Assembly: GCA_006969905.1 (NCBI GenBank)
Contig: CP030887.1
Location: forward strand, 1,532,001-1,596,000
DNA: 64,000 nucleotides
Origin: Balneolaceae bacterium
Lineage (GTDB): Bacteria; Bacteroidota; Rhodothermia; Balneolales; Balneolaceae
Direction: 5' to 3'
Shown here: one piece after another, positions 2,777 to 3,190 of the stretch
Layout of the letters: each line of letters starts with the position of its first letter
Position numbering within the stretch: position 1 is the first letter of the stretch
Translations under genes and position numbers: made by a program
The notes under the pieces: model-generated
What the model saw: only the letters and a program-made list of their open reading frames with translations
Told to the model about the DNA's origin: nothing
Databases searched by the model: none

Positions 2777-2803
2777 GTCATGCTGAACTTGTTTCAGCAT
2801 CTG
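2777..2803. repeat. Left 27-bp inverted repeat flanking GIY-YIG gene
   Basis: Exact reverse complement of 3134-3160. Each arm also folds on itself (ATGCTGAA against TTCAGCAT with a 5-base loop), so it is a REP-like hairpin. It lies 32 bp before the GIY-YIG start codon. Spurious translation of this hairpin type gives peptides such as HAELVSAS and LKQVQHD, which I recall as common in Bacteroidota genomes. Confidence 0.9.
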
Positions 2804-2835
2804 TAAGGAACAGTTTTTTAACTGCTCCTACCAGT

Positions 2836-3126
2836 ATGGCCAAAGGCTACGTATATATCATGTCCAATATTGAGCGAACCACATTATACATTGGGGTTAC
2901 AAATAATATTAATCAAAGGGTGTGGCAACACAAACAAGGAGAAGGTTCAAGATTCACTTCAAAGTATCAACTTACTATTCTTTTGTATGCTGAAGAATAC
3001 TCAACTATTACAGATGCAATTGCAAGGGAGAAGCAGTTGAAGAGATGGCATAAGGAATGGAAATGGAATTTAATCAGAAAACAAAATCCTGATTTAAAGG
3101 ATTGGTACCCTACTCTTAGAGGATAG
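2836..3126 (+). CDS. GIY-YIG nuclease domain protein
   Basis: A 96-residue single-domain GIY-YIG protein of the small UPF0213/YhbQ-like kind. YVYIMSN supplies the GIY half and LYIGVTNN the YIG half. The catalytic Arg is in INQRVWQHK, and the expected C-terminal KxxKRWxxxWK segment with its basic tail follows. The catalytic Glu is probably in AIAREKQLKRW. The start chosen is the ATG directly before KGYVYIM; an upstream TTG would translate through the repeat arm and is rejected. The gene is enclosed by perfect 27-bp inverted repeats with 32 bp on its 5' side and 7 bp on its 3' side, and looks like an independent module dropped between two minus-strand genes. Role unknown: DNA repair nuclease or repeat-mobilising nuclease. 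Confidence 0.88.
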   Translation: MAKGYVYIMSNIERTTLYIGVTNNINQRVWQHKQGEGSRFTSKYQLTILLYAEEYSTITDAIAREKQLKRWHKEWKWNLIRKQNPDLKDWYPTLRG

Positions 3127-3133
3127 CCTTGCA

Positions 3134-3160
3134 CAGATGCTGAAACAAGTTCAGCATGAC
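3134..3160. repeat. Right 27-bp inverted repeat flanking GIY-YIG gene
   Basis: Exact reverse complement of 2777-2803. It starts 7 bp after the GIY-YIG stop and ends 30 bp before the stop of the convergent secreted-protein gene. Confidence 0.9.
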
Positions 3161-3190
3161 CTATCGGAAAATTGGCTTATGAAGCATAAC

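Follow-up and report, generated by a model that had tools for sequence, protein, structure and literature searches.

A small GIY-YIG nuclease gene enclosed by inverted REP-like hairpins, a candidate minimal mobile element

The stretch of DNA analysed here (the window, G000:C1:1532001-1596000, 64 kb from a genome of 3.49 Mb) contains a compact unit in which a single short gene is enclosed by two inverted hairpin repeats. Its features are as follows.

2777..2804, + strand: left hairpin repeat, REP-like, with the GTC tag outward and the CTGT tail facing the gene; matches 3133-3160 perfectly in inverse orientation
2801..2834, + strand: leader RNA hairpin between the left repeat and the start codon, pairing an AAGGA purine stretch (possible SD)
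2836..3126, + strand: GIY-YIG nuclease gene, 96 aa, ATG at 2836, stop codon included; PF01541 E=7.6e-17
3133..3160, - strand: right hairpin repeat, exact inverse of the left repeat, GTC tag outward

The two arms extend over 31 nt at 97% identity (2774-2804 and 3133-3163) around a perfect core of 28 nt (2777-2804 and 3133-3160). The original prediction, made from the letters alone, had described perfect 27-bp inverted repeats around a 96-residue GIY-YIG protein; the protein, the enclosure and the perfect match all stand, and the repeat is one base longer than was claimed. Folding gives each arm the 8-bp stem that had been predicted (ATGCTGAA/TTCAGCAT), closed by a 5-nt loop and bearing the GTC tag on its outer side, and the tags of the two copies read AGTC and GGTC. 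Two hairpin-core matches are observed in the window, compared with 0.02 expected from shuffles. A longer frame of 123 aa starting at TTG 2755 and another frame starting at 3137 run over the repeats and translate them as HAELVSAS and LKQVQHD peptides, the same mistranslation that had been pointed out beforehand. The leader region (2775-2870) folds at -25.4 kcal/mol (z=-3.17), and its pairing of the AAGGA stretch resembles the translation control of IS200-type elements. A leader hairpin conserved across the phylum was not found; a similar GTAAGG...CTTAC stem is confined to close relatives in Balneola.

All 44 sequences compared, drawn from Bacteroidota and Proteobacteria, share the five catalytic residues of GIY-YIG enzymes (Y7, Y18, R28, E65 and N84) without exception. 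An AlphaFold model of the window protein (pLDDT 91) adopts the GIY-YIG alpha/beta fold, its top Foldseek matches being 1zg2 (UPF0213 BH0048), Slx1 and the N-domain of UvrC, all with weak E-values (1e-3 to 0.1) and a probability of about 1. By its motifs, catalytic residues included, and by its fold the protein belongs to the GIY-YIG superfamily. It stands alone at 96 aa, with no homing-type DNA-binding tail (NUMOD), and PADLOC returned no hit that would indicate a defence-system role. Among intact pairs dN/dS is 0.02-0.6 and mostly <0.2, the highest values resting on few changes, and as judged by these substitution ratios the gene is under purifying selection.

Counting copies of the hairpin core through the genome, as the original prediction had proposed, gives 64 matches at <=3 mismatches and 0 for a reversed control pattern. 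In 53 copies picked for having the GTC tag, where GTC itself is therefore present by selection, the conserved block starts at GTC; any base may precede it (T16 C14 G14 A9), and the sequence outside is almost without information. Because conservation begins at this point and almost no information lies beyond it, we take the tag to be the edge of the element. The tail in this genome is CT(T/G), not CCA. Close repeat pairs (<=450 bp apart) number 13 against 0.5 expected, and 9 of the 13 are oriented tag-outward. The genome holds 14 GIY-YIG genes, two of them hairpin-enclosed: the window copy and a copy at 1105837 whose protein is 75% identical to it. The other 12 have no such flanks, and those placed on the protein tree fall on other branches. 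Four more tag-outward pairs hold decayed GIY-YIG genes, recognised against shuffles at 167774 (z 8.0), 317475 (z 13.7), 720928 (z 28.2) and 1803516 (z 8.2). The flanked gene, which on the original prediction should not vary freely, is in fact GIY-YIG, intact or decayed, in the wide tag-outward pairs of this genome; in the other pairs tested the spacer measures 43-159 bp (52-147 bp in the tag-outward ones) and contains no GIY remnants.

The same arrangement recurs well beyond this genome. A scan of close relatives yielded 56 loci in Balneola and its kin, Flavobacteriia, Bacteroidales, Chloroherpetonaceae and others, and 50 of the 54 loci with enough flank carry a hairpin in the same orientation on both sides, compared with 1 of 633 control positions taken from the same loci; at none of the 54 do both flanks occur only in the opposite orientation. 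With a repeat as abundant as this one, 64 copies in a single genome, a gene might happen to fall between two of them by chance, but chance placement is refuted by the control positions and by the excess of close pairs, and we assign it a negligible probability. The stems themselves are maintained, with 627 of 656 stem cells paired (shuffle maximum 578) and compensating changes mainly in the outer stem pairs. The outer stem bases of the left and right hairpins are identical at 14 of 50 loci against 10 by shuffling, a difference not informative on whether the unit is copied as a whole.

Gene and repeat also occur together across 148 genomes of the phylum: the gene is present in 14 of the 15 genomes with at least 20 hairpins and in 22 of the 133 with fewer (Fisher p=3e-9), and, with the window's own family left out, in 5 of 6 hairpin-rich genomes against 15 of 123 others (p=3e-4), although these p-values overstate the evidence because the genomes are related. 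Three genomes (G157, G120 and G125) have 16-22 hairpins and no gene detected. Taken with the flank counts, this distribution is far from the random placement of repeats relative to GIY-YIG genes that had been named as evidence against the original prediction. In one Bacteroidota genome without the CTGAA hairpin, three GIY-YIG genes lie in tandem about 420 bp apart (G087:C86:45036-46131).

Copies of the unit at different places provide the structural evidence for mobility. About 7 copies at 93-97% DNA identity occur at different places in the Balneola genome G007, whose contigs break inside the GIY-YIG gene, as expected for near-identical repeats, and further copies are found in G006, G001 and G002. 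Where copies lie in unrelated surroundings, their alignments repeatedly start at GTCATCC... or stop at ...GGGATGACC; the shared stretch extends past the tag in several cases because those copies sit inside an outer inverted-repeat element. In derivatives about 210 bp long (L223, L224, L225, L227 and L236) both ends are retained and most of the gene is gone, and these are nuclease-less copies of the kind that had been anticipated.

A second inverted-repeat element, with ends TTGTAGATGTTAGGTAATTCGTTGACA, hosts many of the GIY-YIG units in the Balneola genomes G006 and G007 (L143, L144, L145, L152, L237 and L248) and is present at dozens of other places as well. That so many of the G007 and G006 copies lie inside an outer element could mean that the unit is moved by some other mobile element, such as the Balneola element with 27-bp terminal inverted repeats (TTGTAGATGTTAGGTAATTCG...), and that the nuclease is only cargo. 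We consider this improbable, since L146, L155 and both intact copies of the window's genome have no outer element. In addition, hairpins and gene keep the same arrangement throughout Bacteroidota and in many Proteobacteria, a range much wider than the one genus where the outer element was observed.

Of the empty sites in relatives that the original prediction had suggested seeking, one orthologous filled/empty pair was obtained. At this site G006 has only a palindrome (GGTCATCCCG, a 16-bp core, CGGGATGACC) in the position of the G007 unit; alignment of the left flank extends over 823 bp at 96.5% up to the palindrome, and that of the right flank over 242 and 685 bp (94.6% and 91.8%) from the palindrome onward, with the linkage of the two G007 halves inferred from these flanks because the halves lie on contig ends. 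The comparison shows only shared palindrome arms at the junction and no separate target duplication. Some filled copies also carry the 16-bp core palindrome in their hairpin loops (on both sides in L150, and in L144 and L262), so that recombination between two cores would give exactly the empty form seen in G006, which may have arisen by excision instead of preserving the state before insertion. For the window copy no clean empty site could be drawn: 7 of 7 congeners keep the right-hand gene without the unit, and the other neighbour differs. Empty sites for L155 and L146 were not obtained, their neighbours being too diverged or having extra DNA inserted. A perfect 16-bp palindrome, TCCGCCAGCTGGCGGA, or a close variant replaces the hairpin loop in L144, L150, L237, L258, L259 and L262, as if another tiny element were targeting REP loops.

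The structural evidence also bears on a purely regulatory or housekeeping reading, in which a DNA-repair-like nuclease gene keeps the hairpins as terminators or to stabilise its mRNA and nothing is mobile. The leader hairpins of the window, the resemblance of the fold to Slx1 and UvrC and the purifying selection on the gene would suit such a reading. It accounts poorly for copies in unrelated surroundings, for those that are decayed or internally deleted and for the filled/empty site, and other GIY-YIG genes in the window's genome lack hairpins of this type; we judge it very unlikely.

Relatives of the nuclease in Alphaproteobacteria, Aeromonas and some Bacteroidota (class B) are enclosed by classical CGTC-tagged REPs, an extension that the original prediction did not include. 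Within the Bacteroidota sample, GIY-YIG genes of certain other families are flanked by TGTCATTCCCGCGAAGGCGGGAATCCAT in G039 and G044 and by related forms in G085, G094 and G151. In a plasmid collection, inverted CGTC-type REPs enclose 10 of 16 representatives (S. meliloti, Novosphingobium, Neorhizobium, Rhizobium, two Shinella, two Sphingobium, Azospirillum and Aeromonas), tag outward in most, and most proteobacterial loci have the full CGTC tag and a CCA tail. The REP has 6 copies on S. meliloti pSymB, 5 of them clustered within 800 bp around the GIY-YIG gene, and in Azospirillum lipoferum AZO_p3 (L307 1486-1779) the gene sits between sufB and sufC with REPs flanking it in both orientations. 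Among the same 16 representatives, no paired REPs were found at the relatives from Planktothrix, Photobacterium, R. tumorigenes and Spirosoma, Sinorhizobium C101 has a weaker flanking pair of another type, and N. gonorrhoeae (L308) has GTCATTCCCGC-type (dRS3-like) repeats around the gene, the best-matching flanking pair being in opposite orientation. On a protein tree with few columns, many open forks, four rows absent and open reading frames picked in six frames, the difference between repeat classes A and B requires one change and most unflanked genes group apart; repeat class partly tracks taxonomy, yet five class-B rows belong to the window's own phylum.

The strongest competing explanation is that of a homing-type parasite, in which the GIY-YIG gene inserts into pre-existing REPs that are spread by something else. 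GIY-YIG is the classic homing-nuclease fold (PMC1564403), relatives of the gene give weak matches to group I intron endonuclease models, and the solo palindrome of G006 lies exactly at the position of the G007 unit. However, the internally deleted derivatives share both ends of the unit together with gene remnants, which implies that the unit itself has spread; moreover, repeat-rich genomes nearly always hold the gene, and the repeat class follows the protein clade. We therefore consider a homing parasite unlikely.

Our preferred reading is that the unit, from tag and hairpin through the GIY-YIG gene to hairpin and tag, constitutes a minimal mobile element. Conserved anatomy, copies at different sites, non-autonomous derivatives, purifying selection on a gene whose catalytic residues are all kept, the co-occurrence of gene and repeat and the match between repeat class and protein clade are read from genome comparisons, and on such comparisons it is highly probable that gene and hairpins belong together and that the unit is mobile. 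For the remaining steps we infer that the protein would recognise the GTC-tagged hairpin once it is extruded, either single-stranded or as a cruciform, and would cut at or beside it. Having no transposase chemistry, it would leave a break or a nick, which host recombination and repair would fill with another copy as the template. The gene-bearing unit would spread by this route and later decay to solo hairpins, and so would its gene-less derivatives, the hairpin dimers and internally deleted forms that are the counterparts of REPINs or MITEs. That dispersal of the unit is driven by the nuclease is probable, and the repair-mediated route is put forward tentatively. The original prediction of a nuclease-driven analogue of REP/RAYT is supported by the flank counts, the co-occurrence, the derivatives and the filled/empty site, and we hold the full version, hairpin cutting by the nuclease with host repair finishing the spread, to be reasonably likely. 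Counting against it are the GIY-YIG genes of this genome and of other bacteria that lack such flanks, the opposite orientation in N. gonorrhoeae, the genomes with 16-22 hairpins and no gene detected, the possible origin of the one empty site by excision and the several G007 copies that sit inside the outer element.

As in REP/RAYT (TnpA-REP) systems and REPINs, a small nuclease-type gene is bordered by inverted, tagged palindromes with the tag outward, and inverted dimers, solos and gene-less derivatives are dispersed in the genome (PMC2817692, PMC3116915, PMC8266576). However, RAYT is an HUH tyrosine transposase, which is absent from our unit, whose sole gene is GIY-YIG, and the REP/RAYT tag is GTAG where the window's is (N/C)GTC. 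Because these two defining features are lacking, the unit would work like REP/RAYT without being a member of it. The hairpins themselves resemble CGTC-tagged REPs, which include dRS3 and RPE-4/RPE-6 (PMC3733652): they have a GTC tag, an 8-bp stem starting with AT and a 5-nt loop, within the 8-9 bp and 4-5 nt of that family, and form tag-outward inverted dimers. Copies in the window's genome keep GTC and, where the family reads CGTC or TGTC/CCTC, have C in 14 of 53 and T in 16 of 53 as the first tag base; this base varies freely, and in place of the CCA tail of most CGTC families they carry CT(T/G).

With GIY-YIG homing endonucleases of the I-TevI type the unit shares the fold, the catalytic residues and, in the proposed model, selfish spread by cleavage and repair, but it has no intron and no NUMOD and is bounded by inverted hairpins rather than by a split target. 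By structure the closest proteins are the stand-alone UPF0213 and Slx1-like GIY-YIG proteins (1zg2, Slx1), for which we know of no repeat partners; Slx1 has a RING domain and acts with Slx4. Unlike a MITE or an insertion sequence, the window unit encodes no transposase, and the G006/G007 junction shows no separate target-site duplication.

Di Nocera et al. (2013) found no dedicated enzyme for CGTC-tagged REPs, suggested that it had possibly died out, and reported that RAYT genes are never flanked by CGTC units (PMC3733652). Within our literature coverage, which left out most subscription papers and preprints, no paper linking GIY-YIG to REP, REPIN, palindromic repeats, dRS3 or CGTC was found, and word searches of a 2025 REP survey and of a GIY-YIG phylogenomics paper showed no such link. 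Palindromes of the CGTC type are found widely in bacteria, and a nuclease gene that is conserved, under selection and bordered by such repeats in distant bacteria encodes a candidate for the missing enzyme. Whether the CGTC-tagged REP superfamily as a whole, covering the Bacteroidota hairpins, the alphaproteobacterial CGTC REPs and perhaps Neisseria dRS3 and Rickettsia RPE, has its dedicated mobilising enzymes in small stand-alone GIY-YIG nucleases is in our view an evenly balanced question. If the proposed reading is true, bacteria would have a class of mobile element that needs no transposase and spreads through nuclease and repair, and REP-type repeats would have arisen with two unrelated enzymes, HUH and GIY-YIG. 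It would also give a role to a large group of small GIY-YIG proteins that usually carry no annotation beyond 'GIY-YIG nuclease family protein' or 'excinuclease ABC subunit C'.

The relative without paired REPs on Planktothrix agardhii plasmid p1 (L299) lies between a gene for an MmeI-like restriction enzyme and drmA of DISARM.
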